From a virus, in the IMG/VR virus record IMGVR_UViG_3300024308_000021, positions 1 through 64,000 of that record: a DNA stretch of 64,000 nucleotides; one strand, given 5' to 3'. This document shows, piece after piece, positions 3,566-58,989 of this stretch. Made by a program: the position numbers and the translations under genes. A model generated the notes under the pieces. It ran no database searches. It was not told the origin of the DNA and saw only the letters and a program-made list of their open reading frames with translations. Position 1 is the first letter of the stretch, and each line of letters opens with the position of its first letter.

Positions 3566-3952
3566 ATGCGTGTATGGACGATACAGATGGCTAAATGGCG
3601 CATGCTGAGGTTGACTGAGGTGCACCTGATAGACATCACTGTAAAATCTGGTATAAAAGCTCTGGCTCCGAGCTGGGACTTACTCCAACGCTATCGCTCA
3701 GATCCAGCTAGTATGGAGCAGACGTATCGTGAGGAGTTTGCTGAGTTAATGGTAAAGTCTCAGTCAGAACATCCTGAGATCTGGGATGACTTACTGAAGA
3801 TGGAATCGATAGCACTGGCCTGTTACTGTAAAGCAGGTAAGTTCTGTCACAGGCACCTAGTAGCTGATCTGCTGGTAGAGTGGGGAGCTTCTAGAAACGT
3901 GGAAGTTAAACTGATGGGGGAATGGGGAGATGATCCTGGAACCGAAGAATGA
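3566..3952 (+). CDS. DUF488-family protein, 128 aa
   Basis: The signature CYCKAGKFCHRH at residues 86-97 is the hallmark of the DUF488 family, whose cysteines and histidines could bind a metal or form an active site. The biochemical role of the family is not settled. AAGGAG lies 6 bases before the ATG. The gene overlaps the NADAR gene by 23 bases, and close linkage of the two families suggests that they act on related substrates; this is inference. Confidence 0.82.
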   Translation: MRVWTIQMAKWRMLRLTEVHLIDITVKSGIKALAPSWDLLQRYRSDPASMEQTYREEFAELMVKSQSEHPEIWDDLLKMESIALACYCKAGKFCHRHLVADLLVEWGASRNVEVKLMGEWGDDPGTEE

Positions 3953-4469
3953 TGGAGTAGATCATATCAACGTTTACTCCAAAGGAGCTACTGAGTTAGG
4001 TCGTCTTCTGACGAACTTCTCTAGACACACCTTTACAGTACACGGGGAGAGTTTTAGCTCTCTAGAGGCTTGGTGGTATTGGGAGTTGTTGCGAGAAGCT
4101 GGAGTGGTACTGCGGTGGCGTAATGAGGAACTTCCGGTAGACGTAATGGCTCTTATGCTGGAGCTTAAGTTTACCTGGGGGGTTAACGCTAAAACGATCG
4201 GCACTAAGCTGACAGCGATGTACATACCTAACCGAGGTGCTCCTAGCGTGGAGTTTCGTAAGCGCTACGCGGAAGCTGCTGCTGAACGTTTACAGTCCGA
4301 TCTGAAACTGATACGTTTACTGAGAGACTCTCACCTACCACTGGTACACTACTACTGGTACGGTCGAGCTCAGAAGATCACAGTCGTACAGGATCTAAAG
4401 CATCAATGGGTTCTGGGAGTGTGGTCTGATTTCCGTAAGCAGTTGCAAGATGAGCTAAACTCAAACTGA
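3930..4469 (+). CDS. NADAR-family (YbiA-like) N-glycosidase, 179 aa
   Basis: Residues 13-50 follow the NADAR pattern: VYSKG, then LLTNFSRHTFTVHGESFSSLEAWWYW, with NFS at 29-31 and the conserved glutamate E46. MLELKFTWGVNAKTIGTKL near residues 72-90 matches the next conserved block. The C-terminal WG-type block is only weakly recognisable. Family members cleave N-glycosidic bonds; several remove ADP-ribose from guanine or DNA, and phage members are reported to oppose the DarT toxin, while YbiA acts on riboflavin intermediates. Translation is coupled to the DUF488 gene. A counter-defence role is likely but not shown. Confidence 0.75.
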   Translation: MILEPKNDGVDHINVYSKGATELGRLLTNFSRHTFTVHGESFSSLEAWWYWELLREAGVVLRWRNEELPVDVMALMLELKFTWGVNAKTIGTKLTAMYIPNRGAPSVEFRKRYAEAAAERLQSDLKLIRLLRDSHLPLVHYYWYGRAQKITVVQDLKHQWVLGVWSDFRKQLQDELNSN

Positions 4470-4470
4470 G

Positions 4471-4495
4471 GGGGAGTGGGGTAACCCCACTCCCC
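4471..4495 (+). terminator. Terminator after the GNAT-DUF488-NADAR run
   Basis: A perfect 11-bp G/C stem with a TAA loop is followed by T10 at 4500-4509. Confidence 0.92.
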
Positions 4496-4532
4496 TATTC
4501 TTTTTTTTTCGGAACGCACTGAATCTCAGATA

Positions 4533-4540
4533 CATATTAC
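4533..4540 (+). promoter_or_regulatory. Early promoter-like site, CATATTAC
   Basis: It has one mismatch to TATATTAC and is followed by TTAAGTGCAATAA, almost the same as at 796-816. It heads the block of small genes at 4593-7104. Confidence 0.7.
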
Positions 4541-4592
4541 TTAAGTGCAATAAAGCTATAATGCTTTTCAATCCCTTAAGGAGGGAAGTAAA

Positions 4593-4940
4593 ATGATCAA
4601 TTTCTTAAAAGATGTTGGGTACGTCATCCGAGCCACTTACTGGTTCCGCATCATAATGGCTCGAAATGGCTATAAGACTCTCCCACTTAGAAAATGGGAA
4701 TCGCGTCCCATAGGGTGTGAATATATACAGATCACCATACTGACACCTCGCGGTAATCTACTCCCACAAGAAGTAGTGGCGGCGTGGACACTGAAAGCCT
4801 CTATCGAAGAGTGTTTGGAAATGCTCTCTCAACACGGGTTACTCTGGACTGCTGGTGCAGTCCAAGCTACTAATGTTGGTAAATACAACACACATGCTCT
4901 AGCCGAATGCATGAAATACAGAAATTACATGTTAGCCTAA
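4593..4940 (+). CDS. Unknown early protein, 115 aa
   Basis: I do not recognise it. It is mildly basic at the N-terminus and has a strand-rich centre (IQITIL) followed by two likely helices. AAGGAGG is well placed before the ATG. It is the first gene after the early promoter-like site at 4533 and probably the first gene of a unit running to the terminator at 7115. Confidence 0.82.
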   Translation: MINFLKDVGYVIRATYWFRIIMARNGYKTLPLRKWESRPIGCEYIQITILTPRGNLLPQEVVAAWTLKASIEECLEMLSQHGLLWTAGAVQATNVGKYNTHALAECMKYRNYMLA

Positions 4941-4955
4941 AAAGGGATTTACAAA

Positions 4956-5270
4956 ATGACTATCACTGAAATCAAAGCAATGCTGTTGGAGTCCTCTCTG
5001 AGTGAGCCACAGCAGGTTAGTTTACTGAACCGGATTGAGCGTGCTAAGCGCGTAATCGTTTCCGTAAGAGGTGGTCGTTGTCGGAAGATCACTAACGGAC
5101 TGGCGGGGAAGATGTCTCCACTGGATCACGGGGCTTGGTTCTATCGGACACAAGGTCAGTTGGCTATCGTAGAAGCCAAACGGATAATGGTCGATCGGGT
5201 GTTGGTTCCTTCGGTGTTCCTGGAACTGGCTTTCGTTCGGGTCAAAGAAAATAACAAATGGGTCGACTAA
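4956..5270 (+). CDS. Unknown early protein, 104 aa
   Basis: I do not recognise it. The first 30 residues are helical; the middle is very basic (RAKRVIVSVRGGRCRKI near 29-43), which could suit nucleic acid binding, though nothing specific supports that. It has AAAGGG before the ATG and lies 15 bases after the previous gene. Confidence 0.8.
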   Translation: MTITEIKAMLLESSLSEPQQVSLLNRIERAKRVIVSVRGGRCRKITNGLAGKMSPLDHGAWFYRTQGQLAIVEAKRIMVDRVLVPSVFLELAFVRVKENNKWVD

Positions 5271-5287
5271 AGGACTGAGGAGGTCCT

Positions 5288-5608
5288 ATGGGTGTCGTGA
5301 CACTTAGTGGGACCTTTGAGTCCATCTTTACACGGAAGTTTGTAGTGGAGCGTACTGAGATACTGAGCTTAGGTAGCTTGGCTCGTACGCTTCAAGAATC
5401 TTTAGAGGCGATGGGATTGCGAGCTACTGCTTCAGCATACCCACCAGAGCGCCGTAAAGGGGCCTTGGTGCTCTCTCGAGGTAATCGGAGTGTGTATGTA
5501 CACACTACAGTCAAAGATGCCGACGATTACTTCCAGGAGCTTCGTCCTGTAATCTTCCGTTCCATTCCGGTAAAGGGATTGGAACTCACTGCGATATTTG
5601 GAGAATAA
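5288..5608 (+). CDS. Small early protein, 106 aa, possible member of a local paralogue group
   Basis: I do not recognise the family. Residues 41-90 (MGLRATAS, then LVLSRGNRSVYVHTTVK, then DYFQEL) share the order of features seen in the three small proteins at 6223-7104: a GLxxTxS strand, a strand pair and a final helix. GAGGAGG stands 4 bases before the ATG. The relation to the others is weaker than theirs to each other. Confidence 0.78.
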   Translation: MGVVTLSGTFESIFTRKFVVERTEILSLGSLARTLQESLEAMGLRATASAYPPERRKGALVLSRGNRSVYVHTTVKDADDYFQELRPVIFRSIPVKGLELTAIFGE

Positions 5609-5612
5609 AGTC

Positions 5613-6230
5613 ATGAACTGCTTTCGCACTGATAACGGAACACACATCTGGAAATGTGGGATCTGGTTGATAGGTAGTAATGGTAAGGATATCTTGCTGT
5701 ATTCTACTCTTCCGCATGATGCTATTCCGGTAGATCAAAACCACCCCGTAGGGATACGTAATGCGGTGGACTATCTTCAGTCCAACTACCCCAATGGGTT
5801 TGCACACAACCTGCTTACTGAGCTTTACTACGTGAAGCTCAGGGAGTTTCTGAAAATAGCAGAACAGCCTTTGCGTTACTGCTACAGTAGCTACTGGCAG
5901 ACCTGGTCTAGACTGGTAGCTGAGTGCGATGGGAAGTACGTGGAGGTGAATCTGTCGCCTCTTAACGGCTGGAGTTCTAAGGCGGGACTGGATCACGTAC
6001 TTGGTGTTCGGGTACGCTGTCACTGTACTCCTAAGACCCCTAAAGACATCGTGACTGACCAACTACCACCTTACCTGCTCGAAGAGATGCGCGAGCACCT
6101 GGGGGCTGAACTCACTCAGTTTATGCTCACAGCTGATTTCGTAAACCTTGTTGACTGGCAGTCTTACCGTAAAGCAAACAACGGTGGGGCTAGTTTTTAC
6201 CGTATTGCAAAAGGAGTTCCTTGTGTCTAA
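5613..6230 (+). CDS. Unknown early protein, 205 aa
   Basis: I do not recognise it. It contains many aromatic residues (WQTWSRL, YYVKL, NGWSS) and looks like a mixed alpha/beta soluble protein. ATG 5613 is chosen over TTG 5598 because GGAG lies 9 bases upstream of it. The last bases overlap the GTG start of the next gene. Confidence 0.82.
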   Translation: MNCFRTDNGTHIWKCGIWLIGSNGKDILLYSTLPHDAIPVDQNHPVGIRNAVDYLQSNYPNGFAHNLLTELYYVKLREFLKIAEQPLRYCYSSYWQTWSRLVAECDGKYVEVNLSPLNGWSSKAGLDHVLGVRVRCHCTPKTPKDIVTDQLPPYLLEEMREHLGAELTQFMLTADFVNLVDWQSYRKANNGGASFYRIAKGVPCV

Positions 6231-6564
6231 TACAAACACTATCGACTTTACAAGCATAAAGTCTTATATTCGTTACAACGTTATAGATTCCATGGTAGTC
6301 ACCTACTGTTGTCCCATTCGACTCCGAGAGTATCCTCAGTTACTGATGATGGCCCGCAAGTTGGGTGTGGTCGTTACCTCACACAGACCAGAAGGTAAAA
6401 TGTTCACCGCTCTGTGTAAGTTAAAACTATCTGGAGAGGTGTTGGTTTGTTATCCCCGTAAACCCCTGAATCTGTATCAATTCAAACAGAACGTCCGGAT
6501 GCTGTTTAATCTCATGCAATCACTTCGCCCCGATATTGGGGCGTTGTCCGACATGGAGTTGTGA
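6223..6564 (+). CDS. Small early protein, paralogue 1 of 3, 113 aa
   Basis: The GTG start is set by AAGGAG 7 bases upstream. Residues 45-100 run RKLGVVVTS, then a strand (KLSGEVLVCY), then PRKPLNLYQFKQNV and a helix ending in LRPD. The next two proteins show the same plan, which indicates local duplication. Function is unknown. Confidence 0.8.
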   Translation: MSNTNTIDFTSIKSYIRYNVIDSMVVTYCCPIRLREYPQLLMMARKLGVVVTSHRPEGKMFTALCKLKLSGEVLVCYPRKPLNLYQFKQNVRMLFNLMQSLRPDIGALSDMEL

Positions 6565-6872
6565 TGAAATTACCTTTGAATAAAATTCGTAAGTTGGGAC
6601 TGCGTGTAACCACTCAAACCCCAACGACTGGAGAGATGATAACTCTTGCATTGGATAGTGATAAAAATTCATTCTACCTTATCGCTAACCGTGCTCTGAG
6701 CATCGACAGTTTCAGTAAACGGGTAAGTGTAGTTCTAGGATTGGTTGGTGGTATGATCGACCCGTTGTGGTTTGGTTACACTCCTTACCATCCGGAGTTA
6801 ATCCTGAGACGTCAAAGATTCATGAAGGGAGGGTTGGGAATTGAACAATCGTGTAAATCTGTATCTGGTTGA
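6564..6872 (+). CDS. Small early protein, paralogue 2 of 3, 102 aa
   Basis: It shares RKLGLRVTT, then a strand pair, then NRALSIDSFSKRVSV and a terminal helix with its two neighbours. The ATG overlaps the previous stop codon by one base and has GGAG 5 bases upstream, so translation is coupled. The C-terminal part is longer than in the other two copies. Function is unknown. Confidence 0.8.
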   Translation: MKLPLNKIRKLGLRVTTQTPTTGEMITLALDSDKNSFYLIANRALSIDSFSKRVSVVLGLVGGMIDPLWFGYTPYHPELILRRQRFMKGGLGIEQSCKSVSG

Positions 6873-7104
6873 GGATATTCAGGCTATACAGCTGGCTATG
6901 TACTACCGAGCTGCTCGTAAACTGGGTTTGGTAGTTAGTACTGTCGACACTCTACCAGGTCGTAGTTTGGTGCATCGCACTCCTACAGGGGTGGAAGTAA
7001 ACGTCTATGCTAAACGACCGATGTGTTACCGACGGTATCTGCGACGGTTTAATAAGCTGGTTGCTCTATTTCCCAATCCAGTAGATCTGTCGAAAATGTT
7101 CTAA
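6841..7104 (+). CDS. Small early protein, paralogue 3 of 3, 87 aa
   Basis: It starts with TTG preceded by GGGAGG and overlaps the previous gene by 32 bases. The shared plan is again visible: ARKLGLVVSTV, then VEVNVYAKRPMCYRRYLRRFNKLV and a PNPVD end that compares with LRPD and MIDP in the others. It is the last gene before the terminator. Function is unknown. Confidence 0.76.
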   Translation: MNNRVNLYLVEDIQAIQLAMYYRAARKLGLVVSTVDTLPGRSLVHRTPTGVEVNVYAKRPMCYRRYLRRFNKLVALFPNPVDLSKMF

Positions 7105-7114
7105 GGACATAAAA

Positions 7115-7138
7115 GGAGGAGGGCGCGAGCCCTCCTCC
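7115..7138. terminator. Bidirectional terminator between convergent units
   Basis: A perfect 10-bp stem with a GCGA loop has T11 downstream on the plus strand and A residues on the other side. It ends the small-gene block and the tube gene from the opposite direction. Confidence 0.9.
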
Positions 7139-7159
7139 TCTGTTCTTTTTTTTTTTGGA

Positions 7160-8023
7160 TTACTGACGGATGAACACCTGAGCAGCTTCTTCCATTTGAC
7201 CCATGTATCCGTTGTTGTGGCGAGCCACTTCCGGATCGATCTCTTGGATAAAGCTCGGAGCCATGTTCGGGTTGACACCGGTCCGTACCATCTGATCCAG
7301 CAGTTTCTGGCAGTACAGACGTACGCCGTAACCATACTGAGTCAGAGCAGTAAACGGAATGCTCAGCTCGTTGAGCTCACCACCAGCAGTCAGGTCGCGA
7401 GAACCTTCGATAGCACCGGTAGTGGTCGGACGCATGTTGGTGCAGACCCAACCTTCGATTACACGAGTACCTGACGGGTCAGTCTCGATGAAGGCACAGC
7501 TTGCGCCAGTGTACTCCGGCAGCAAGTCGATGTTCCGAGCCAGACCACGAGATACAACCATCGGGGTCTTGGTGCTGGGGTCGCCTACCAGATACAGGAT
7601 CCAACCTTCCAGCAGATGCTTGAAGGGTTTCCCGTATTTCTCAGGCCAGGTAAAGGTCGGCTCAGAACGCTCACGAGTAACGTTCGAGGGATCTTGTTGC
7701 ATTTCACCGGCACCGCCGACTGCAACTTCCTGGTGCTCTACAGTCAGCGTAGCACGCAGACCTTCGATGCGAGTGGCGTGACGCTCGAACATCGCCTTCA
7801 GTGCAGAGATCCAAGCGTCCGGATCCGGAAGATCCAGGAAACCGCGAGGAGCCTGCAACATGATGCAGATGAGATTACGGCGGACGTAGTTAGCGTCCGC
7901 GTTGTGTACGGTCAGGTCGGGCATGAAGCCTTGTTGGCCAGACTCGATGATGTTAACCATCGGAGAAGTAGCCTGGGAGGCAAACCCGCGCTGAGCCGCT
8001 AGGATGGACTCTTTAGTACTCAT
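7160..8023 (-). CDS. Tail tube protein, 287 aa
   Basis: The gene lies directly downstream of the sheath gene, overlapping it by four bases, as the gp29/gp30 sheath-tube pair does in phiKZ. Length and the strongly biased, high-expression codon usage fit a major tail tube protein, which would polymerise into the inner tube through which DNA passes. I cannot point to a diagnostic tube motif, so the call rests on gene order, size and codon bias. The bidirectional terminator at 7115 follows. Confidence 0.82.
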   Translation of the reverse strand: MSTKESILAAQRGFASQATSPMVNIIESGQQGFMPDLTVHNADANYVRRNLICIMLQAPRGFLDLPDPDAWISALKAMFERHATRIEGLRATLTVEHQEVAVGGAGEMQQDPSNVTRERSEPTFTWPEKYGKPFKHLLEGWILYLVGDPSTKTPMVVSRGLARNIDLLPEYTGASCAFIETDPSGTRVIEGWVCTNMRPTTTGAIEGSRDLTAGGELNELSIPFTALTQYGYGVRLYCQKLLDQMVRTGVNPNMAPSFIQEIDPEVARHNNGYMGQMEEAAQVFIRQ

Positions 8024-10098
8024 TGATCAAGCTCCGATCTGCGGTGGGCCACAACAGTGAACGAGGTCACTGTCTTCATGTTGTTACCGTACACGTGGAT
8101 CTTACAGGTTTCGCTGTAACCACGTTGTTCGTCGTACTTGGTTTCGTAGGTATCGGGAACGATCACTACACGCTCGTCGAAACGATCTTTAACCAGTTCA
8201 CGAACACGACGGTTGATCCGGTCAGCGCGCTGAGCCGGGGTCAGATCAGAACGACCGGTGAAGTCACGCCACACACGGAAGTTGACCTTCTGAACTTCCA
8301 CGCAGATGATCATGTTGATCAGAGCATTCAGGATACTGGTATCGTCACGATACACAGTCTGCATGCCAGCGTAGAAATCAGAACGAGTGTCGTAGGACTG
8401 AGCCCAGATCATCCCGTTATCCCAGTCTTTGATACGGTTCGGATCAGACTTCCAAGTGGTCTGGAGACCCTTGAGCAGTTTGACTTTGTTGTTCGGAGTA
8501 ATGTCAGCAGCAAAGCGGCCTTTCATCACACCGTCACCGGAACCACAGTACTGAGACAGAGCGTACGCGATTTCGAAGGTGCCCGGAACCAGCTTCTTCC
8601 AAGCGGAGTTGATCAGGTAACCCGACTGACCTACGATAGCAGCACGTACCACGGAAGTACCGTAGAGTTCAGCTTCAGGGAACTGCTCTGCGGCAGTGCG
8701 CAGCGCGATCGCCATACTGGACTCGGTAGCCTGGTCGTTCTGCTTGAGCGACACGTCCTGAGTGGACAGACAGACCCAAACGTCTTTACGAGCGCCGAGT
8801 ACTTTGAGCATCGACTTCTTGGTATCGATGTTAAAGCCGGTATCGACGTAGACAGACTGCGGGAACCGCGCGATGTCCAGGTACTGGTTGGCCAGACCGC
8901 CGAAGTTATCGAACTGCTCTTTAACAGAGACGTTGAACGCTTCGTCAGACATTTCGCCATCAGCACCGCCTTGCAGATACTGCACGGAGGTCTCGCTGAA
9001 CACCACACCGCCGTCCAGGGTACCCTGTACTACCAGTGAGTGGAGTGGGTTGTTGTAAACATCCCGACCAGTCAGTACGTTAACCAGGTACTTGGATTCC
9101 GGAACATCCGGCCAGGTAGGTTGCAGCGCGTGCTCTTTGGAGTAGATCTTGGCCAGTACGGCGTCGACGTTAGCCTGGTACACGTGGAACTCACGCAGAG
9201 GACCGTAGATCGGCGCGAAGCCAGAGGTCGGGTCTACTGAACGGTAGCTCGGGATCACTACGTCATCCGCGTGGTATTCGCGGTTGGTACGATCGTCGTA
9301 GGAGTTCGGACGCAGGGTGAAGTCCACGAAAGGAGCGGAGTTCAGATCCTGAGTGATCACCGGGGTGCTGCGAGCATTCGGACGCTTGAGCATCTGGAGA
9401 CGATACATAAACGCACCCAGGCGAGTCATCAGAGACTCATCGGCCGGGGAGGAACTACGCAGGGTAGGAGCCATCAGGCGCACACCTACGTTGTCGCCGT
9501 CTTTACCGAAGTGGGCGTGATCCAGATCGAAGAACGGATAGAAGGTAGACTTCTCACCAGCACTGCCGGTCAGAGTCCCTTCTTTGGTAACGCCCAGACC
9601 GATACCATCGGGGTTGTCTTCAGTACCAGGACCGATGGGTTGCACGGACCACTTGACGATCACACCGGGACGGGTTTCACCAGTATCGACCGGTTGACCG
9701 TCTTGACCCAGTTTCAGAGAACCGTCGGGATTGCGTTCGTAGATCTTGACCACAGACTCCACGACCTCAGCGCCGAAACGCAGATTCGGACGCTTAGCAC
9801 CAGTCGGGATAATACGCTGATAAACAGCGGACTGACCGGACTTGAGGAGAACCTCGTTGATGAAAGCTGTGGAGTGGTTGGCGTATGGACTGCGATAGTT
9901 CAGTGCATCGTCGCCGAAGATGCGCTTAGCATCCGCCGCGTTCAAGTGCAATGCATTCTCGTCGCCACTGGGAGCGTAAAGGAATACGTGAGGGAGGAAG
10001 ATAGGGAGCTGTTCCGGCTCCGGATCTACACGTCTCCCGGAAACGTCCTGGATGCCTTCGAGGATGGCAGCCGGAGACGCGTTTGCGTAATTGGACAT
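8020..10098 (-). CDS. Contractile tail sheath protein, 692 aa
   Basis: Length is close to phiKZ gp29 (about 695 aa). The C-terminal part has the look of the conserved sheath core: a DFTGRSDLTPAQRADRINRRV region near the end followed by strand-rich sequence. The sheath polymerises around the tube and contracts on infection. MSNYANAS at 10098 is chosen as start over the 15-residue upstream extension because AAGGAG lies 7 bases before it. Codon usage is strongly biased, as expected for a major virion protein. Confidence 0.88.
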   Translation of the reverse strand: MSNYANASPAAILEGIQDVSGRRVDPEPEQLPIFLPHVFLYAPSGDENALHLNAADAKRIFGDDALNYRSPYANHSTAFINEVLLKSGQSAVYQRIIPTGAKRPNLRFGAEVVESVVKIYERNPDGSLKLGQDGQPVDTGETRPGVIVKWSVQPIGPGTEDNPDGIGLGVTKEGTLTGSAGEKSTFYPFFDLDHAHFGKDGDNVGVRLMAPTLRSSSPADESLMTRLGAFMYRLQMLKRPNARSTPVITQDLNSAPFVDFTLRPNSYDDRTNREYHADDVVIPSYRSVDPTSGFAPIYGPLREFHVYQANVDAVLAKIYSKEHALQPTWPDVPESKYLVNVLTGRDVYNNPLHSLVVQGTLDGGVVFSETSVQYLQGGADGEMSDEAFNVSVKEQFDNFGGLANQYLDIARFPQSVYVDTGFNIDTKKSMLKVLGARKDVWVCLSTQDVSLKQNDQATESSMAIALRTAAEQFPEAELYGTSVVRAAIVGQSGYLINSAWKKLVPGTFEIAYALSQYCGSGDGVMKGRFAADITPNNKVKLLKGLQTTWKSDPNRIKDWDNGMIWAQSYDTRSDFYAGMQTVYRDDTSILNALINMIICVEVQKVNFRVWRDFTGRSDLTPAQRADRINRRVRELVKDRFDERVVIVPDTYETKYDEQRGYSETCKIHVYGNNMKTVTSFTVVAHRRSELDQ

Positions 10099-10300
10099 CG
10101 TTGACTCCTTGATCAAGGGTTCAGTAGTTCGTACTGAAAACACTTAAAGTGGCACGAAACCGCCTTAAGGGTATTTATAAGAACACATAGCACACCTTTA
10201 CCAAAATGGTATGGTTGTGCGTATGTATCCGGGACGCACGTCATAGAGATTAACGTTTATTAATACTACTCTCTTCATTTATTTCCCAGGAAGGTAAACC

Positions 10301-11287
10301 ATGTTGCTGAAAACACCATACGACGCACCGGTCATGAAAGCCTATGACCTCAAAAAAATCCAATCCCAAGTAGCTGAAGCCATCGTAGCTGGTGAGTATG
10401 CTAGTCGTGAAAAACTCGACGAGTCTGCTGCTATCTACAGAACTCCTAATCCGATGTGGGATTTTGAGCTGGCTAATGACGTCGTGGCTATCGTGAAAAA
10501 TACTGACTGGAAAACCACAGTCGATCCTTTCCCTATTCCTTTTAAGATGCGCACTGCTGCTGGTAAAGAGCTGTACGTCCTGGATGCTCGGATGTACACA
10601 GCTCCGGCCAACCACTACCGTCAGTACGGCATTATGCACAACCCGTCTGAGATTGGTGTGTATTCCGACATTATCTCTTGGATGCGTTGCTGGGATGCCC
10701 GTGAGGGTGGTGACATTCGTCGTGTGCATGACTACGTGACTGGTACTTTCGCTAACTGGATTGCCAGTGCTGTTTCCAGGATCACTGGTGTGAACGGTGG
10801 TGAGGATTACGATATCATTCGTTTCCTGGCAGCTTACTGGTTCCAGGCTCAGTTCTCTGAAGTACCTTACGAGGTTACTGTAGAAGAGCGTCTGCGGATG
10901 CGTCGCGTAATGACCAACTGCTGGCCTCGCCCGGATTCCGTGGTAGATCTGCAAACCAAGGACTTCGGTTACATCGGAAACCTGGAAGACTTCCTGGAAG
11001 CGGTTAAGAAACAGCTTCCTAACAATCGTCGGGTACACATGCTCAACCGGGCTTACTTCACACAGCAGATCGCCAACAGCTGGCGCGGCTTCCATGCTGG
11101 TGTGATGAGCAACGTGGCTATGGAGTATCCTCCTTTCTTTATCGCCATGTACTACTACTCGCTGACCAACGGTTGGGCTAAAGATGTTGGTTTGGGTAAA
11201 GTAGCACAGAACCTGCGCGATACTCAAAAGCGTGCAGACTTCCTGGCCTCCTATCGGAGAACTATCAATGTCTGGAAACAGCCGTAA
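10301..11287 (+). CDS. Probable virion protein (phiKZ gp28-like position), 328 aa
   Basis: I cannot name a fold. The sequence is soluble and aromatic (WMRCWDAREGGD, AAYWFQAQFSEVP, YYYSLTNGW). It stands divergent from the sheath gene and leads three large genes that run to the terminase, the arrangement found around gp26-gp28 of phiKZ; homology to those is inferred from gene order only. AGGAAGG precedes the ATG. It overlaps the next gene by 20 bases. Confidence 0.8.
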   Translation: MLLKTPYDAPVMKAYDLKKIQSQVAEAIVAGEYASREKLDESAAIYRTPNPMWDFELANDVVAIVKNTDWKTTVDPFPIPFKMRTAAGKELYVLDARMYTAPANHYRQYGIMHNPSEIGVYSDIISWMRCWDAREGGDIRRVHDYVTGTFANWIASAVSRITGVNGGEDYDIIRFLAAYWFQAQFSEVPYEVTVEERLRMRRVMTNCWPRPDSVVDLQTKDFGYIGNLEDFLEAVKKQLPNNRRVHMLNRAYFTQQIANSWRGFHAGVMSNVAMEYPPFFIAMYYYSLTNGWAKDVGLGKVAQNLRDTQKRADFLASYRRTINVWKQP

Positions 11288-13814: not shown

Positions 13815-13824
13815 GGAATAGGAA

Positions 13825-15480: not shown

Positions 15481-15489
15481 CGTAATACG

Positions 15490-15512: not shown

Positions 15513-15524
15513 TAAGGAACGTTT

Positions 15525-28239: not shown

Positions 28240-29199
28240 ATGAAGAACACTGTTCGTATCTACGCCTGTGGCGGTGGTGGTATCGCCCAAGCTCAGAATC
28301 TTCCTGCGTTGGAAAACGCGGTAGGACTGGCCACTCCGAGTATCGTATATTGTGATACCTCAGAAGCCAACCTCCTGGCTCACGACACTACTCAGACCTT
28401 CCTGATCAAAGGAGCTAAAGGTAGTGGTGGTTTGCGTTCTCAGAACGCTGAACCCATCGTGGAGTCCGTAGGTGACCTGTTAAGGGAACATCCGCCATGC
28501 GACTTCAACATCGTTCTGTTCACTGGCGGCGGCGGTTCTGGTAGTGTGTTCGGACCGATCGTGCAAGGTGAGTTACTGCAACGTGGTGTAGCCACGGTTG
28601 GGTTGATGATCGGTTCTACCGAGTCAGCTCGTGTCACCGAGAACGTTCTGAACACTTTCCGGTCTCTGGAATCTGTACGTGGTGAGCTCCCTCTGGTGAT
28701 CATGTACTTCCAGAACCAGGACAACGCCTCCCAGGCTGTAGTAGACCAGCAAGTAATGGCAGCGCTCCCTCTGCTGTTGATGCTGGCTTCCGGTGAAAAC
28801 TACAGTATGGATCCGAACGATCTACTGCACTTCTTGCGGTACGACCGTGTGACGGATGTTCCCGCCCAACTCACGCTGTTGGACATCTTTACTGATGCGG
28901 AAGCGGTTGCTCGCGCAATCACTCATCCGATTACCAACGCCAGCGTGTACTCCGATCGCGATGCTACTGTATTGCAACTCGGTTCCCAGTACGACGCATT
29001 CGGCTTCCGTCCGAAGATCGATGCGATGGATGCTCCTGAATCAGTGCACTTCGTTACGCACACTCAAGAGCTTCGTGAAATCCTGGGTGGACTCCAGTCC
29101 GCTCGTGAAAAGTTCCAGGAGACTGCCAAGTCGATCCGCCCTGCTATGGATCTGCTGTCCGGCGTCTCCCAGAAAGGCCCTGGTAAACTAGTCCTGTAA
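28240..29199 (+). CDS. phuZ: PhuZ, phage tubulin-like GTPase, 319 aa
   Basis: The tubulin/FtsZ signature loop is clear: FTGGGGSGS with GGGGSG at residues 96-101, which binds the GTP phosphates, and the N-terminal strand with ACGGGGIAQ near residues 9-17. Length is that of the phage tubulins (about 315 aa). In phiKZ-like phages PhuZ forms a bipolar spindle that centres the phage nucleus and carries capsids to it. AAGGA precedes the ATG. The C-terminal tail (SIRPAMDLLSG to LVL) may contact neighbouring subunits in the filament, as known for PhuZ. No transcription terminator follows immediately. Confidence 0.95.
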   Translation: MKNTVRIYACGGGGIAQAQNLPALENAVGLATPSIVYCDTSEANLLAHDTTQTFLIKGAKGSGGLRSQNAEPIVESVGDLLREHPPCDFNIVLFTGGGGSGSVFGPIVQGELLQRGVATVGLMIGSTESARVTENVLNTFRSLESVRGELPLVIMYFQNQDNASQAVVDQQVMAALPLLLMLASGENYSMDPNDLLHFLRYDRVTDVPAQLTLLDIFTDAEAVARAITHPITNASVYSDRDATVLQLGSQYDAFGFRPKIDAMDAPESVHFVTHTQELREILGGLQSAREKFQETAKSIRPAMDLLSGVSQKGPGKLVL

Positions 29200-37527: not shown

Positions 37528-39489
37528 ATGGGAGTCGTCTTAGATGATCTGGAGTCCTCTCCAGACTCCGAAGAAAACACCAACACTACTACTCAGGCTC
37601 CGGTCGCTCCGGCAACTGAGCCAGTGGTGCAGAAAGCTCAACCCCAACCGGAACCCGCATACCGCGCTACCGAAAATCATAATACCCAACAACAAGGAAA
37701 AATGGACATGTCCCAAGAACAAAACCAATTCGACCAGCAAGCTGCTACCGACATCTTTGCTCAGCTGGCCAACACTGCATCCCCGCTGGGTTCCCGTTCT
37801 GCCGAATACGGCCACCGTTTCAAGATGGCCTGGACTGACGCTGTAAAAGAATCCACTGGTAAATCCGAAATCGACGGCTACGTCACCAGCATCATCTCTG
37901 GCGTCTCCGTAGGTTCTCCGGCCGACATCGCTGCTCTGAGCCACATCGGCAAAGACAAGCGTATCGTGACCTACTGCCTGCTGCTGGGCGGCGCTGCTGT
38001 AGAGCTGGCTCCGAAAACTGAGCAACGTGATGGCGAGACTATCTCCGTTACCCAGACCATCGGTACCGTGTTCGACGGCGATACCAACATGGCTATCGCC
38101 ACTGTACTGGGTCAGCAATTCGGTGTCCCGGCTCAAGCCGTGATGATCGTTGGTAAGTCCCTGGTGCCTAAGAACTTCGAGTGCACCCCGCTGACCATGC
38201 GTGACGTCATCCAGAACGCCTACATGGCGGTATCCGTTGTCTCCAAGATGACTGAGTTCCGTCCGTTCACTGTTTCCCAGCTGTCCACCGCGATCAACCA
38301 GAACATCCGTGTTGGTGCCAAGGCCGACTTCTCCGCACAACCGACTAAAGACATCTACGGTCGTCCGCTGCGTACCGAAGTTACCCTGGAAACCTACGCT
38401 GCTGTGAAAGGTAAGTCCAAGTCCTGGGAACAGCAGATCAACCTGACCCGTGTACAAGGTTTCATCAACGTTCTGTACCTGCCGCAGCTGCAAGTACAAG
38501 GCATGATGCCTTCCACTCAGGTGCTGATGCCGGAACTGGTAATCACCAACGTCTCTGCTGACTTCGGTGACCCGACTCTGGAGCGTATCCTGTTCGCGCT
38601 GGTAGGTGCTCTGTCCATCGAGCGTGATGGTCTGTGGGCTAAAGCGTTCATCCCCCGCAACAACGTCAAAGGCCGTATCGACACCCGTGACATCGGTGCC
38701 GTAGGTTGCGACATCAAGCTGGGTGCTGACGTTCCGCTGGCCAAGATCGATACCAAGTCTGCAAGCTTCACTCAGGACAAGCTCAAAGAGCTGCTGTCCA
38801 TGGTGTTCCGCCGCGAGGCCGGTATCGCTATCTCCATGGATCTGGATCCGACCGCTTACAACTCCTGGCTGACCGACATCTTCGCACGTGCCGCTTCTGG
38901 CGACTCGCATGCGCAGACCACCATCCTGCGTGCTACCGACCGCATGTGCAACGGTAAGTTCCAGGCTCGTTGGGATGCTCTGCAAGTCCAGGGTGAGAAG
39001 CGTGTGCTGATCAACCGTGGTCTGGTTCAGAAAGGTACCTACGTCCATGACGACGGTACCCTGCACTCTCTGGATGAGATGAACGATTACCTGGCCGTGT
39101 GCAACCTGTACGGTTCCGGTGATCCGCAGGTTCTGCGTGAGTATGTCGAAACCATCGAGTCTCCGGACATGCCGATGCCGATCCGTCTGTCTCGTCGTGA
39201 GCGTCTGTTCCGCAGCATGAACGACACTGTGAACATCGAGTCCTACGCTCTGCGTGCCATGTTCACTCCGTACTACATGCAGTGCTTCGTTGCCGCTCTG
39301 GCTGAGTGCAAGGTTGTCATCAACCCGGATACCTCCGGCTTCACTCTGACCGGTGGTCTGCGTGGCGATGCTTCCCTGCAAGGCATGGGTATGACTGGGT
39401 TCTCCAACACCCTGTTCCAATCCCAGACCTTCGGTGGTGGTAACTGGGGCAACAGCATGGGTGGTTCCTGGAACAACAACTGGGGTTAA
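37528..39489 (+). CDS. chmA: ChmA, chimallin, major protein of the phage nucleus, 653 aa
   Basis: The protein matches chimallin in length (201phi2-1 gp105 is about 630 aa), in its place immediately before the non-virion polymerase beta-prime gene as in phiKZ (gp54-gp55), and in layout: a disordered Q/P/T-rich N-terminal segment (residues 1-60), a two-domain core, and a glycine-, asparagine- and tryptophan-rich C-terminal tail (from about 630) that is known to link tetramers. ChmA assembles into the lattice that encloses phage DNA and keeps out DNA-targeting defences. Codon usage is extremely biased, as expected for the most abundant early product. A second possible start, ATG 37708 preceded by AAGG, would remove the first 60 residues. 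Confidence 0.9.
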   Translation: MGVVLDDLESSPDSEENTNTTTQAPVAPATEPVVQKAQPQPEPAYRATENHNTQQQGKMDMSQEQNQFDQQAATDIFAQLANTASPLGSRSAEYGHRFKMAWTDAVKESTGKSEIDGYVTSIISGVSVGSPADIAALSHIGKDKRIVTYCLLLGGAAVELAPKTEQRDGETISVTQTIGTVFDGDTNMAIATVLGQQFGVPAQAVMIVGKSLVPKNFECTPLTMRDVIQNAYMAVSVVSKMTEFRPFTVSQLSTAINQNIRVGAKADFSAQPTKDIYGRPLRTEVTLETYAAVKGKSKSWEQQINLTRVQGFINVLYLPQLQVQGMMPSTQVLMPELVITNVSADFGDPTLERILFALVGALSIERDGLWAKAFIPRNNVKGRIDTRDIGAVGCDIKLGADVPLAKIDTKSASFTQDKLKELLSMVFRREAGIAISMDLDPTAYNSWLTDIFARAASGDSHAQTTILRATDRMCNGKFQARWDALQVQGEKRVLINRGLVQKGTYVHDDGTLHSLDEMNDYLAVCNLYGSGDPQVLREYVETIESPDMPMPIRLSRRERLFRSMNDTVNIESYALRAMFTPYYMQCFVAALAECKVVINPDTSGFTLTGGLRGDASLQGMGMTGFSNTLFQSQTFGGGNWGNSMGGSWNNNWG

Positions 39490-45600: not shown

Positions 45601-45621
45601 GGTTGAAAATAATAATAAGCC

Positions 45622-47283: not shown

Positions 47284-47299
47284 TAAAGGAGTAATGGAC

Positions 47300-48796: not shown

Positions 48797-48799
48797 GAA

Positions 48800-50059: not shown

Positions 50060-50071
50060 TAAGAGCATAAC

Positions 50072-50102
50072 GGCTAGCTAGGGGGAGTACCCCTAGCTAG
50101 CC
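50072..50102. terminator. Terminator between convergent genes
   Basis: A perfect 13-bp stem with a GAGTA loop lies between the genes at 48800 and 50132. Confidence 0.88.
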
Positions 50103-50131
50103 TTAATATAATGTATTTTTTTATCTGAAGG

Positions 50132-50467
50132 TCAGATATTGTAGTTAGTCTGAAAGCGTTGTTGTAAATACTCCATACTCGTATCTCCAGGAATGTAGAG
50201 ATTAGTATGTTGGTAGTCGAACTCATGGTCGTGTTTGAGACTATTGAGTCGCATGGTTAAGTAATGTTTGTGTTGAGGCACGTTGTAGTGTGCTAAAAAC
50301 CCAAACAGGTTAAACCTGAATTTATGCAGTTCACTAGGAGGCACTGAGACTAGTTGTGTATCCTGGCGTTTACGGAACCACTCTAAGTGATCTACTAAAA
50401 CCTGCATGAATTTAGGATCGTAATAAATTTGGGAACCCGAGGGTACCAGTAGAGCTTCTAGCGACAT
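50132..50467 (-). CDS. Unknown small protein, 111 aa
   Basis: I do not recognise it. It is rich in histidine, phenylalanine and tyrosine, with a basic centre. AAGGGA precedes the ATG. It lies alone on the minus strand among transcription genes and is divergent from the polymerase beta gene. Confidence 0.75.
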   Translation of the reverse strand: MSLEALLVPSGSQIYYDPKFMQVLVDHLEWFRKRQDTQLVSVPPSELHKFRFNLFGFLAHYNVPQHKHYLTMRLNSLKHDHEFDYQHTNLYIPGDTSMEYLQQRFQTNYNI

Positions 50468-50492
50468 GGTAGATCCCTTAATTTTTGCAACC

Positions 50493-50503
50493 TATATCAT
50501 TAC
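50493..50503 (+). promoter_or_regulatory. Weak early promoter-like site, TATATCATTAC
   Basis: It resembles TATATTAC with two bases inserted and lies 33 bases before the polymerase gene. It is weaker evidence than the other sites. Confidence 0.35.
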
Positions 50504-50535
50504 TATGCCTAAGAATAACTAGGAGTGTAACCTAG

Positions 50536-54599: not shown

Positions 54600-54600
54600 T

Positions 54601-57282
54601 GTGTCGAAGTTGCAGATAGAGGTGCAGTCTCACCACTTTGTATTGAGCGGGTATGATTTCCCGCTCTTTCAAAAGCTGGTGAAGTTCTGTGAACCTCTGA
54701 TACAGACGGAAGTCGACGTAGATCCGCGTAAAGGCACTGAGACCTCAGTAACGAAAGTATACGCTGCGTCTTCGCCCGATCGAAAGATCATGCGGTTCCA
54801 CATCAACATTCTCAATAAGTTCATGGAGTTCGTGAAACAGATCGGGCTCACGCCCGATCAGTACGAAACGGTTGTGAAACCAATGTACACACCAGCTCGC
54901 ATGAAGTGTAAGTTAAAGGAGCATATCAAACCTCGGGATTACCAAGTTCCCATTGTGGATTTTGTTGTAGAACCCGAACAGAAAACCAGAGTAATAGGCA
55001 TACAAACGGGAAAGGGTAAGAGCACATCAAACGACACTTTCGTTCGAATTCCTGGTGGTTGGAAGAGAATGGGTGATCTTAAGGTGGGCGATTACGTTAT
55101 TGGGCGTGATGGCAAACCAACCCGCGTGAAAGGAGTTTATCCGCAGGGTAAGCTCCAACTTTACGAAGTGGTTTTCTGGGATGGTCGGAAAGTTGAGGTG
55201 TGTAAAGAACACCTCTGGGAAAGTTATTTCTCCAACGCCTCCCCTAAAAAACGATGGTCTGTAAGAAACACAGATACCATTAAAACCATAATCGAAAAGA
55301 ATCCAAAACCAGGAGTTTATATTCCACTCCCAGATCCTGAAGATTGTCCGGAAAAGGACTTTTTAATGGATCCATGGTTATTGGGCGCGTTGCTGGGGGA
55401 TGGGTGTATATCACACTCCTCGACAGCTATAAGTACTCCAGACGAACATATCGTCGATAAGTGTAATGCGATACTCAACCCCATCGGTTATGAACTCCGC
55501 TATGATAGCAAGTACGACCACAGTATCGTTAGATCAACAACTGACGTCGATCCTTTTTACAAGTATCTCCAGCGTGTCGGTATTTTTGGCAAGCGTGCTT
55601 GGGAAAAGGAGATACCGTGGGAGTATCTGGAGGGTTCGTTAGAACAACGCTGGAAGCTACTACAGGGACTGTTGGACACCGACGGGACTGTAGGTAAGGA
55701 AGGACATATAACTTTCGATACTACTAGCATGGTACTAGCCGATCAAGTTCAAACTCTCGTACGTAGTCTTGGGGGAATAGCTCGGATTAAATATCGAGCT
55801 AAGAACATGTATACTTACAAAGGAGAATATCTCGCAGGTCGTCCGAGTTATCGGGTAGGCATACGTTTGAAAACTCCAAGTAAGGCTTTTACTCTTCCGA
55901 AAAAGAAAGATCGCACTAACGATCAAAATCAGTACTCGGAAGGATTAAAGCTGCGTGTTCGCAGTATCACCCCCACACGTGTTGACGAAGCCACCTGTAT
56001 CGCTGTAGAAGCAGAAGATCACCTGTTTGTGGTACAGGACTACATCGTCACACACAACACGCTCACAGCGCTGATGGCCGTGGCTCAGCTTGGCCTGCGT
56101 ACCGCTGTGGTATTACCGGCGATGTATGCTGAGCAGTGGTATGGCGACATCCAGGATGCTTTCAACTGTACTGTGAAAGACATCATGTTTGTTCGTGGTC
56201 TTAAGAATCTAAGATCAGTAATCCAAATGGCACGTAATGGTGAGTATACCCAAGACTTCATCATCATGTCGTCCACGACGATGCAGTTGCTGATTAAAGA
56301 GTACGAGACCAACCCCGAACTGTGTTGTGAGATGTATTGTCACCCAGCTGAGCTGTTTGAGCTACTGCAAGTCGGTGCTCGTGTGATTGATGAATGCCAC
56401 CGGAACATCCATCTGAACATCAAGATGGATTTGTACACTCACCTTCAGAAGTCTATCAACCTGTCAGCCACACTCAACACAAGAGATCCTTTCATTTCCA
56501 GAATGTACGGAATGATCTATCCCAAGAAAGACCGTTACGATGGTCTGGAGTACGACCGCTACGTGGACGTGTTTGCATTGGAGTATACGATGCGGCGTGC
56601 ACACAAAGCCAAGTACAAGGGATTCAAGGGTTACTACAGTCACACTCGCTTAGAGCAGTGGCTGCTGAAGAACCCTAAGGAGCTCGACAACTATTGCGAG
56701 ATGATTTATCAGATCGTGAAAGATTGTTACGTAGTAGATCGGTTGGAAGGTCAGAGGTGTTTGATCTTTGCGGCATTCGTGGAGTTCTGTACTTACCTGA
56801 CGAAGTATCTACAACGTAAGATACCAGAGTTGAAAGTTGGTCGTTACGTGTCGGAAGATGATTACGTGACGTTACTGGCTAACGACATCTCTGTGTCTAC
56901 GATTCTGTCGGCGGGTACAGGCGTGGATATCCCAGGCTTACGTGAGGTTATAATGACCACCAGCATTGATTCGATGCAGGCTAACGAGCAAGCCAAAGGA
57001 CGTCTGCGTAGACTGAAGGACTTCCCTGACGTCAACCCAAGGTTCTGGTACATCTACTGTACACAGATACCTAAGCAGGTCGATTACTCCCGACGCAAGG
57101 AACAGCAGTTCCGTGGTACGTGTCGTTACTTCAAGCAGATACAAACGGACTACACAGTTGCAACTGACTTCGAAGACTATCTGGCAGAACCATTCCTCTT
57201 GGAAGGAGATTGTTTCCGCCAAGATGATGCTGGATTCTTCGATCAGCATGTGCAGTGGATCCCGTACGATGAAGCAGCCTAA
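54601..57282 (+). CDS. SF2 DNA helicase interrupted by an intein (phiKZ gp75-like), 893 aa
   Basis: After removal of the intein the protein has 547 residues. Superfamily 2 motifs are present: Walker A TGKGKT rejoined across the intein, DECH at residues 597-600 (motif II), SAT near 622 (motif III) and QAKGRLRR near 797 (motif VI). Such helicases remodel DNA or RNA using ATP; the precise role here is unknown. It starts with GTG 5 bases after GGAGG, directly behind the polymerase beta-prime C gene, the position of phiKZ gp75. Splicing must occur for the ATP site to form. Confidence 0.92.
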   Translation: MSKLQIEVQSHHFVLSGYDFPLFQKLVKFCEPLIQTEVDVDPRKGTETSVTKVYAASSPDRKIMRFHINILNKFMEFVKQIGLTPDQYETVVKPMYTPARMKCKLKEHIKPRDYQVPIVDFVVEPEQKTRVIGIQTGKGKSTSNDTFVRIPGGWKRMGDLKVGDYVIGRDGKPTRVKGVYPQGKLQLYEVVFWDGRKVEVCKEHLWESYFSNASPKKRWSVRNTDTIKTIIEKNPKPGVYIPLPDPEDCPEKDFLMDPWLLGALLGDGCISHSSTAISTPDEHIVDKCNAILNPIGYELRYDSKYDHSIVRSTTDVDPFYKYLQRVGIFGKRAWEKEIPWEYLEGSLEQRWKLLQGLLDTDGTVGKEGHITFDTTSMVLADQVQTLVRSLGGIARIKYRAKNMYTYKGEYLAGRPSYRVGIRLKTPSKAFTLPKKKDRTNDQNQYSEGLKLRVRSITPTRVDEATCIAVEAEDHLFVVQDYIVTHNTLTALMAVAQLGLRTAVVLPAMYAEQWYGDIQDAFNCTVKDIMFVRGLKNLRSVIQMARNGEYTQDFIIMSSTTMQLLIKEYETNPELCCEMYCHPAELFELLQVGARVIDECHRNIHLNIKMDLYTHLQKSINLSATLNTRDPFISRMYGMIYPKKDRYDGLEYDRYVDVFALEYTMRRAHKAKYKGFKGYYSHTRLEQWLLKNPKELDNYCEMIYQIVKDCYVVDRLEGQRCLIFAAFVEFCTYLTKYLQRKIPELKVGRYVSEDDYVTLLANDISVSTILSAGTGVDIPGLREVIMTTSIDSMQANEQAKGRLRRLKDFPDVNPRFWYIYCTQIPKQVDYSRRKEQQFRGTCRYFKQIQTDYTVATDFEDYLAEPFLLEGDCFRQDDAGFFDQHVQWIPYDEAA
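55021..56058 (+). mobile_element. Intein with LAGLIDADG homing endonuclease in the helicase Walker A motif, 346 aa
   Basis: Splicing blocks are visible: block A STSNDTFVRI at the start (nucleophile Ser1), and block G at the end with VTHN followed by Thr+1. Two LAGLIDADG motifs, LLGALLGDG (near residue 260 of the precursor) and LLQGLLDTDG (near 353), mark a homing endonuclease. The insertion falls between Lys and Thr of GKGKT, so excision restores the ATP-binding site. Codon use is less biased and more A/T-rich than in the flanking helicase, which suggests recent transfer. No other intein was seen in the window. Confidence 0.93.
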
Positions 57283-57286
57283 AAGA

Positions 57287-57304
57287 GGAGGGCTTCGGCC
57301 CTCC
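57287..57304 (+). terminator. UUCG terminator after the helicase
   Basis: A 7-bp stem with a TTCG loop and T5. Confidence 0.9.
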
Positions 57305-57337
57305 ATTTTTACCAACCCCAGAATAAAAGGTATTAAA

Positions 57338-57709
57338 ATGCGTAACAAACACCCTATCCAACCACTGGAACTCGTAGACGGTATTTTGCGTTTCAAAGCC
57401 AATAAACTGGTCAGAATTCTGTTCGAAACCCATCCAACCATGGATTTGAACCGCATAGCGTGCATGGACTTCAGCGACGAAGACCGTGAGCAGCTCTCCC
57501 AGCTTATGGGCGGTAGTTTTAGCTACTGTGGTGACCTACCGTATTTCAGTACAGCTACGCTACATATCGCTAAAGCACAGTACGACCGTGGCGCAGATCC
57601 TCGCGACGCCCGCATAGAGCAACTCGAAGCGGAACTAGCCGCTATCAAAAAGCTACTAGCTCCTGCCGTTTCGGTTATCTACGACATCCACCCAGATGAC
57701 CTGAAGTAA
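57338..57709 (+). CDS. Unknown protein with C-terminal coiled-coil segment, 123 aa
   Basis: I do not recognise it. Residues 88-105 (DARIEQLEAELAAIKKLL) form a likely coiled coil, suggesting oligomers. ATG 57338 has AAAAGG upstream; longer readings run into the helicase gene. It lies between two terminators, so it is a single-gene unit. Confidence 0.82.
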   Translation: MRNKHPIQPLELVDGILRFKANKLVRILFETHPTMDLNRIACMDFSDEDREQLSQLMGGSFSYCGDLPYFSTATLHIAKAQYDRGADPRDARIEQLEAELAAIKKLLAPAVSVIYDIHPDDLK

Positions 57710-57714
57710 TCACT

Positions 57715-57734
57715 AGAGGAGCTTAGTCTCCTCT
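57715..57734 (+). terminator. Terminator
   Basis: A 7-bp stem AGAGGAG with its complement, loop CTTAGT, then T9. Confidence 0.9.
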
Positions 57735-57765
57735 TTTTTTTTGGGATTCCACGCAAACACAAACC

Positions 57766-57773
57766 TATATTCT
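57766..57773 (+). promoter_or_regulatory. Early promoter-like site, TATATTCT
   Basis: Two mismatches to TATATTAC at the end, but the context AAACCTATATT and the following TTCAGTGAA match the other sites. It lies 53 bases before the gene at 57826. Confidence 0.6.
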
Positions 57774-57825
57774 TTCAGTGAATAGGAGCATTCCGCCCCT
57801 GTTCTTTTACTGAAGGAGTAGTGAA

Positions 57826-58053
57826 ATGACAGTAAGCGATCTAACCTTAGACATCATACGCGCTAAACGCGAGTGTCGTGCCTACCTGTGGAGTCTCCAC
57901 AAACACCGCCTGACCTGGCGTATGCGTGCAGTAGTGTGTCTGTTCCTAGCAGTACACTTCGCACGTGACCTCCGTATGACCTGGACTTACGTACACGTAG
58001 AGCGAATGATTCGCCTGCTGGGTCTGGATAAAGGAGGATCCAAATGTCGCTGA
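57826..58053 (+). CDS. Small basic early protein, 75 aa
   Basis: I do not recognise it. It is strongly basic with a short hydrophobic segment (AVVCLFLAVHFA near 35-46) that is too short for a sure membrane helix. AAGGAG precedes the ATG and an early promoter-like site lies upstream. It could be a small host-takeover protein. Confidence 0.78.
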   Translation: MTVSDLTLDIIRAKRECRAYLWSLHKHRLTWRMRAVVCLFLAVHFARDLRMTWTYVHVERMIRLLGLDKGGSKCR

Positions 58054-58481
58054 CACCTGCAAAACTAAAGTCACATCGTGACGAAGCCCAACGTAACGCC
58101 GAACAAGGCTTTGCTAATGGGATACTAAAAGCATTATGTGGCGAAGGGTTTTCACCCATAGAAGCTACTAACCGTTACTCACGACCAACCCCAGGAGGAA
58201 CCTTAGTAAAAGCCCGCTCTGAGTTATACCCAGAGTCTGGGTATGAGTGTCTAGTAGTAGCCGAGGGAAACCGCTACATAGACAACCACAGCTTCGCAAT
58301 TCGTGTGATGCACGATCTTCTGATCGGTCTGTACCGCAAGGATCTACCAAAGGAACAGAAACACCGATACCTGAAACCAGGTGGCAGTGGAATGACTTAC
58401 ACAGTCTCTGATCCCTGGAGGAAGTGTAAGGTTACGATGATGTACGATCGCATTGTAATCGACTTCCGTAAACTACGTTAG
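58044..58481 (+). CDS. Unknown protein, 145 aa
   Basis: I do not recognise it. It is basic and looks alpha/beta, with a glycine-rich loop (LKPGGSGMTYTV near 108-119). AAAGGAGG lies before the ATG, which overlaps the preceding gene by 10 bases. It ends at a bidirectional terminator. Confidence 0.8.
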   Translation: MSLTPAKLKSHRDEAQRNAEQGFANGILKALCGEGFSPIEATNRYSRPTPGGTLVKARSELYPESGYECLVVAEGNRYIDNHSFAIRVMHDLLIGLYRKDLPKEQKHRYLKPGGSGMTYTVSDPWRKCKVTMMYDRIVIDFRKLR

Positions 58482-58490
58482 AGACATAAA

Positions 58491-58514
58491 AGAGGAGGGC
58501 GGTAGCCCTCCTCT
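58491..58514. terminator. Bidirectional terminator
   Basis: A perfect 10-bp stem with a GGTA loop between convergent genes; T10 follows on the plus strand. Confidence 0.9.
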
Positions 58515-58536
58515 TAAGTTTCTTTTTTTTTTCGAG

Positions 58537-58989
58537 TTAACGCCATTCGTTGTAGATGTAGACTTCGTTTGGGATGCGATCAAACCAGTACCTAAAGATA
58601 TGTCTTACCTTACGATACTCCAGTGTGCCAGTCTGTTGCCCACATCCTAACGCTGGTGAGTAGATTTTTGCATTACCCAAACGATCCACAGACTCTACAA
58701 GTTTACGAAGGTTTTGCTCCAACAACTCAGTAGTAGAGACGTCATACCAATGGTGTTTAGTAGGTATCAGTAATAGCTTTAAGTCTGGGTTGATATCAAA
58801 CAACATCAGACTGTTTAAACCAAACCGTCCCTCCTTACACATCACACGGTATCTACGGTAAACTTCAGGATAGCGACTACGAATGTAAGCAGCTATTCCT
58901 TTACCCATGATACCATCGATATTCACAGGTACTAGCAATATCCCCTCGTCGTGTTTAAACACGTCACCAGGGCCTTCGTAAACGACCAT
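58537..58989 (-). CDS. Macrodomain protein, DarG/ALC1-like class, 150 aa
   Basis: The ADP-ribose-binding pattern is plain: GDVF (8-11), VNIDGIMGKGIA (22-33, the adenine and distal-ribose loop), IPTKHHW (75-81) and ALGCGQQTGTL (113-123, phosphate loop). The TK-x-HW block with K78 corresponds to the catalytic lysine of the DarG and TARG1-type macrodomains, which remove ADP-ribose from DNA or from glutamate. The likely job is to remove or bind ADP-ribose on phage DNA or protein, for example to counter a DarT-type defence; this is inferred from family. It forms the last gene of the minus-strand group. Confidence 0.85.
   Translation of the reverse strand: MVVYEGPGDVFKHDEGILLVPVNIDGIMGKGIAAYIRSRYPEVYRRYRVMCKEGRFGLNSLMLFDINPDLKLLLIPTKHHWYDVSTTELLEQNLRKLVESVDRLGNAKIYSPALGCGQQTGTLEYRKVRHIFRYWFDRIPNEVYIYNEWR

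Follow-up and report, generated by a model that had tools for sequence, protein, structure and literature searches.

A DarG-like macrodomain protein, a gp30.3-type NADAR protein and a DUF488 protein in a nucleus-forming phage, and their possible role against ADP-ribosylation of DNA

Why should a nucleus-forming phage carry two unrelated ADP-ribose-acting protein families together with a DUF488 protein? The question is raised by the window analysed here, which covers positions 1 to 64,000 of the 125,585-base virus record IMGVR_UViG_3300024308_000021. A reading made from the letters alone (hereafter the sequence-only reading) had pointed to the three genes and suggested layered protection against ADP-ribosylation of DNA, guanine or protein. 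All three open reading frames (ORFs) were found at the coordinates and on the strands described there (Table 1), and profile comparisons, AlphaFold and Foldseek results and PHROG kinship agree that both families and DUF488 are present in one phage. The contig belongs to a nucleus-forming phage (Chimalliviridae), as had been claimed: the nuclear shell protein chimallin, the tubulin PhuZ and several multisubunit phage RNA polymerase subunits are all present. Judging from sequence, models and analogy, protection against DNA ADP-ribosylation by these proteins is plausible, and we put the probability of a joint explanation, in which a DarG-type macrodomain eraser, a gp30.3-type NADAR protein and a DUF488 finishing step act together, at roughly 0.5.

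The macrodomain protein scores 29.7 bits with Pfam Macro (cut-off 22), and it is also matched by the DarG models of NCBIfam (antitoxin_DarG, E 3.1e-25) and PADLOC (E 1.9e-27). Because these models match over their macrodomain part only (profile positions 6-147 of 338 for NCBIfam, the window protein being 150 aa long), the protein is predicted to be a DarG-like enzyme lacking the toxin-binding half; the DarT-binding C-terminal domain of DarG is absent from it. Sequence comparison places the solved DarG macrodomains of M. tuberculosis and T. aquaticus closest, together with a Thermosipho protein. The AlphaFold model (pLDDT 87, with an ill-defined loop at 118-120) returned DarG as the top four Foldseek matches (Taq, Mtb and Thermosipho; TM ~0.83), followed by human TARG1, and the Thoeris ThsA macrodomain ranked 30th. 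The TK-x-HW block recognised earlier is present as PTKHHW, and the five DarG residues compared are all in place, with N23, K30, K78, H80 and W81 corresponding to N22, K29, K80, H82 and W83 of the T. aquaticus protein (TaqDarG). In TaqDarG, K80A abolishes activity, N22A and K29E strongly reduce it, and H82A and W83A have little effect; for W83, a stacking contact with thymine has been proposed (PMC5179494). All 32 aligned relatives retain K78, with the caveat that one of the two search patterns included the TK-x-HW block. The window protein shares with DarG, the antitoxin of DarTG2 (TaqDarG, 5m31/5m3e; MtbDarG, 5m3i), the fold, the catalytic Lys, the Asn, the H-W pair after the Lys and the MGKGIA loop. 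It differs in consisting of the macrodomain only, in a two-residue insertion in its GCGQQTGTL loop, and in having no darT found in the 125.6-kb record, which is a fragment but covers the adjacent genes.

The NADAR ORF had no match among the curated Pfam, NCBIfam and PADLOC models, and a PDB search with the single sequence gave no matches, so that profile and fold searches were required. Its earlier assignment to NADAR was nevertheless borne out by these, and also by PHROG kinship: it falls in phrog_652, which T4 gp30.3 matches at 8.9e-52. An AlphaFold model based on a 40-member alignment reached a mean pLDDT of 96.5, and its best PDB matches in Foldseek were YbiA and the P. nicotianae NADAR-ADP-ribose complex (8bau), both with probability 1.00, at a TM of only ~0.5 and E-values of 0.004 and 0.02. 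YbiA and P. nicotianae entries again came first in the PDB profile search (1.2e-4 and 1.9e-3). As modelled, the protein belongs to the NADAR superfamily by fold and descent. The catalytic Glu of the first active-site helix (E43/E88) is E46 here and is kept in all 40 family members, the last-strand residue (Asp, Glu or phage His) is the phage-type H140, kept in 39 of 40, and the K75 position is kept as K88. T4 gp30.3, which strips ADP-ribose from guanine in vitro (PMC11125620), shares the active-site Glu and His with the window protein but is only ~22% identical to it and keeps a Lys at E+7. The DarT1-linked NADARs (E. coli C7, G. lovleyi) and YbiA share the YbiA fold; unlike the phage protein, they have the Lys, and Asp/Glu at the last-strand site where the phage has His, and the DarT1-linked NADARs also have an N-terminal extension (PMC11543638, PMC11125620).

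The third protein matches Pfam DUF488-N3a, a clade labelled active by Pfam, at 54.7 bits against a curated cut-off of 27, and it weakly resembles DUF4326 (E 0.0014, under the cut-off). The conserved CYCxxGxFCHR block is present as CYCKAGKFCHR and is retained with small variation in 14 relatives. In phiKZ the DUF488 gene is PHIKZ151 (NC_004629 155325-155675). In Erwinia phage Caitlin (L103:456-1791) and in Asesino (L108), the beginning of the DUF488 gene is overlapped by an ORF that resembles a PP-loop ATPase and has a TGG[LV]DS motif; the Caitlin version was searched for in the present record, and this candidate partner was rejected as it gave no match. No discussion of DUF488 together with NADAR was found in the literature consulted.

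According to the joint explanation, the macrodomain would be an ADP-ribosyl hydrolase of the DarG type that stands alone. Its most likely substrate would be ADP-ribosylated thymidine in phage DNA, and the probable site of the reaction would be the interior of the phage nucleus, as the macrodomain's phiKZ relative gp104 suggests. Such a reaction would relieve the action of DarT-type host toxins that block replication, and, since the half of DarG that binds DarT is absent, it would depend on catalysis only. The NADAR protein would be a T4 gp30.3-type N-glycosidase, most likely removing ADP-ribose from guanine bases or a related small molecule; with the phosphate clamp partly lost, its activity is uncertain. 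DUF488-N3a would probably finish off ADP-ribose products or signals, at least in the lineages that link it to NADAR and SLOG, and this is the weakest step.

The place of action is suggested by phiKZ gp104, a macrodomain protein of the same family, which is imported into the phage nucleus via PicA within ~10 minutes as a cargo without known function (PMC11087766). Antisense knock-down of gp104 slightly lowered chimallin (ChmA) and left plaque counts without major change; a benefit in hosts carrying other defences was proposed by those who ran the screen (PMC12571901). The macrodomains of phiKZ (gp104), RAY (gp152), LucasX and phiEco32 resemble that of the window in being stand-alone DarG-type domains with the PTK block, and phiKZ, RAY and LucasX are likewise nucleus-forming phages; however, they do not group with the window protein in the tree, and import is known for the phiKZ and PhiPA3 proteins only (PMC11087766). 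Because the tree does not place the window macrodomain together with gp104, its nuclear import is an extrapolation. More generally, it is possible, if doubtful, that an enzyme removing ADP-ribose from DNA is at work inside the nucleus of nucleus-forming phages, with the macrodomain (gp104 in phiKZ) as a DarG-type thymidine-ADP-ribose eraser. The phage nucleus is thought to keep out DNA-targeting host proteins. If the proposal is true, ADP-ribosylating toxins would reach phage DNA despite the shell or before it is formed; the presence of a DarG-type enzyme among the imported proteins suggests that the shell does not fully hold off the threat of DNA ADP-ribosylation. Meanwhile, phiKZ gp104 would gain a concrete predicted reaction, and de-ADP-ribosylation of DNA inside the nucleus would become testable.

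The distribution of the three genes was compared in 15 known relatives. DUF488 occurs in 12 of them, the macrodomain in nine (three of these under the family cut-off) and NADAR in seven, and all three genes are present in five (Caitlin, LucasX, SPN3US, RAY and Asesino). The chimallin model matches 12 of the 15, the other three being relatives missed by the model; Asesino is reported as a nucleus-former (PMC11724907). In RAY, gp153, in which NADAR is fused to SLOG, comes immediately after the macrodomain gene gp152, and L026 has the same order; a SLOG-DUF488 fusion adjoins NADAR in L041, L042 and L044, and DUF4326 is fused to NADAR in L028 and L062. In a distant syntenic relative (L049), a DUF488-NADAR pair, with DUF488 and NADAR each at ~34% identity, stands upstream of the virion protein and tail sheath genes that also follow the pair in the window, and LucasX has DUF488 at that same place, with NADAR elsewhere in the genome. 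The earlier suggestion that DUF488 acts in the same pathway was thus partly upheld, by linkage in some lineages (L049; SLOG-DUF488 beside NADAR), but most lineages show no such linkage; the association of DUF488 with NADAR is thus real but optional. Alignments were needed as queries for these scans, since single-protein scans of viral contigs (NADAR, macrodomain, tail sheath) found nothing, and the first macrodomain alignment was too divergent for scanning. Three further arrangements were observed. In L041 (3905-5456 and 8901-9476), a second NADAR lies 3.5 kb beyond the one next to the SLOG-DUF488 fusion, a DUF488-SLOG link of the kind known for DUF4326. In L046:4986-6614, NADAR is fused to a PD-(D/E)XK nuclease domain. 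In L015:4992-7883, NADAR, a 3'-5' exonuclease and DNA polymerase A share one 963-aa frame; this is a single contig in which an assembly error is possible, and the fusion, if real, points to DNA as a NADAR substrate.

Much of this gene content has been described before. Macro and NADAR were described in jumbo phages of all groups (Iyer et al. 2021, PMC7824862), NADAR was found in ~48% of medium and jumbo phages with Macro/NADAR co-occurrence above chance, and DUF4326 is fused to both Macro and NADAR (Iyer et al. 2022, PMC9503650). The gene set is ordinary for the nucleus-forming group, parts of the trio or the whole of it recurring in many relatives. What the window adds is DUF488-N3a where DUF4326 stands elsewhere, and a very DarG-like macrodomain. 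Compared with the DUF4326-NADAR-SLOG-Macro assemblies of large phages (Iyer et al. 2021, 2022), the same domain families occur in one genome and DUF488 resembles DUF4326; in contrast, the window shows no fusion, no SLOG (YAcAr) gene was found in the 125.6-kb record, and the macrodomain lies 54 kb off. For DUF488, whose function is not known, the recurrent DUF488/DUF4326-NADAR-SLOG-Macro grouping hints at candidate substrates.

Layered protection, as the sequence-only reading had it, is partly supported by the DarG-type macrodomain, the kinship with T4 gp30.3 and the nucleus-imported phiKZ relative, but a number of observations weigh against it and against the joint explanation. The NADAR protein keeps E46 and H140, but two phosphate-contacting basic residues are missing: the clamp Lys position (E+7) is Leu53, and the canonical Arg79 position is Thr92. 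That Lys, which is K50 in P. nicotianae and K95 in E. coli C7 NADAR, coordinates the phosphate and is essential in C7 (PMC11543638); L53 sets the window protein apart from canonical NADARs of the DarT1-antitoxin type. T4 gp30.3 gave cells no protection from DarT1 (PMC11125620). Knock-down of PHIKZ151 raised, rather than lowered, plaque or ChmA levels, unlike most hits of the screen (PMC12571901). In the tree, the macrodomains of nucleus-forming phages fall into several separate lineages, the well-supported branches requiring four changes or more, and that of the window is not joined with phiKZ gp104; a single orthologous group for all of them was rejected on this ground. No NADAR lies within 6 kb of DUF488 at any of the 12 other DUF488 loci. 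Finally, Iyer et al. 2022 hold that phage Macro and NADAR mostly clear small ADP-ribose derivatives (PMC9503650).

In another reading, the three genes are independent accessory genes, and DUF488 has a task outside ADP-ribose chemistry, such as the modification of nucleic acids. The wider occurrence of DUF488 than of the other two genes, its position behind a PP-loop ATPase-like gene in two phages (Caitlin, Asesino) and the 12 loci with no NADAR nearby all point in this direction, but the DUF488-NADAR order kept in L049, with the tail block downstream, and the SLOG-DUF488 fusion adjoining NADAR do not. We regard independence as a real possibility, though not one to be preferred.

It is rather unlikely that the main task of the set is to remove small ADP-ribose derivatives (cADPR variants, ADPr-1''-phosphate) that NAD+-based defences of the host, for example Thoeris, produce, and not macromolecular ADP-ribose. 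This function was argued for most phage Macro, NADAR, SLOG and DUF4326 domains (PMC9503650), and the recurrent links of NADAR to SLOG, which has been proposed to sense or process small molecules, are consistent with it, as is the altered NADAR clamp, which fits a different ligand. However, the window macrodomain is DarG-type and not ThsA-type, including the Trp thought to stack on thymine, its relative acts in the phage nucleus, where the DNA is, and the record yielded no SLOG gene.

The residues at the clamp, together with the lack of matches to curated NADAR models, could also mean that the enzymatic activity of this NADAR-fold protein is lost or altered and that the protein serves instead to bind a toxin or a nucleotide ligand. 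We consider this unlikely, given the invariant catalytic Glu and a His kept in all but one member of a diverse family. Lys or Arg stands at E+7 in 19 of the 40 members and is missing in 21, so the whole family seems to manage without it; because about half of the family lacks it, the aligned sequences suggest a clamp altered family-wide rather than a mere defect of this one phage.

A housekeeping role, in which ADP-ribose by-products are dealt with (RNA repair, tRNA 2'-phosphate removal) or damage from the phage's own NAD+ use is limited, is very improbable: a connection of Macro and NADAR with RNA repair has been drawn (PMC9503650) and a LigA-like ORF suggests NAD+ use, but the macrodomain is DarG-type rather than Poa1p-type, and the failure to find darT in the record is also counted against it. 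The ORF in question, at record position 121449-123407 outside the window, resembles an NAD+-dependent DNA ligase (LigA) as judged by eye, and because of it the phage itself probably consumes NAD+.

Table 1. Positions of the features discussed, numbered along the window
Feature	Position	Strand	Evidence
DUF488-N3a protein, rhodanese-phosphatase superfamily; active-site block CYCKAGKFCHRH	3566..3952	+	Pfam E 1.6e-14; phrog_2450 E 4e-39
Phage gp30.3-type NADAR (YbiA fold)	3930..4469	+	phrog_652 E 4e-26; AlphaFold; Foldseek; profile vs PDB 8bau 1.2e-4; residue counts
DarG-type macrodomain, macrodomain only; N23, K30, K78, H80, W81	58537..58989	-	NCBIfam, PADLOC, Foldseek, PDB 5m3i 3.6e-16
Chimallin (nuclear shell protein)	37528..39489	+	phrog_4795 E 3.7e-66
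PhuZ tubulin	28240..29199	+	phrog_4733 E 1.1e-79
GNAT acetyltransferase, upstream of DUF488, same direction	2412..2861	+	Pfam Acetyltransf_10 E 4.3e-15
Intrinsic terminator-like hairpin and T run, end of DUF488-NADAR pair	4468..4511	+	Sequence read: ggggagtggggtaaccccactcccc, then T run

The overlap of the NADAR and DUF488 genes described in the sequence-only reading amounts to 23 bases. Because of this overlap and the terminator-like hairpin after NADAR, the two are probably the final genes of one unit. The GNAT gene said to precede NADAR is real, but two small ORFs (2863-3249 and 3233-3556) stand between it and DUF488. The macrodomain gene, on the opposite strand, likewise ends at a hairpin with a T run.

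Megablast of window positions 1-12000 against phages gave zero matches. Elsewhere in the window, the helicase (54601-57282) contains an intein-like insert, matches to unrelated phage families being concentrated at residues ~137-490. In the large terminase (15525-17714), terminase families match residues 1-209 only, and the other 520 aa may be an intein or insertion.

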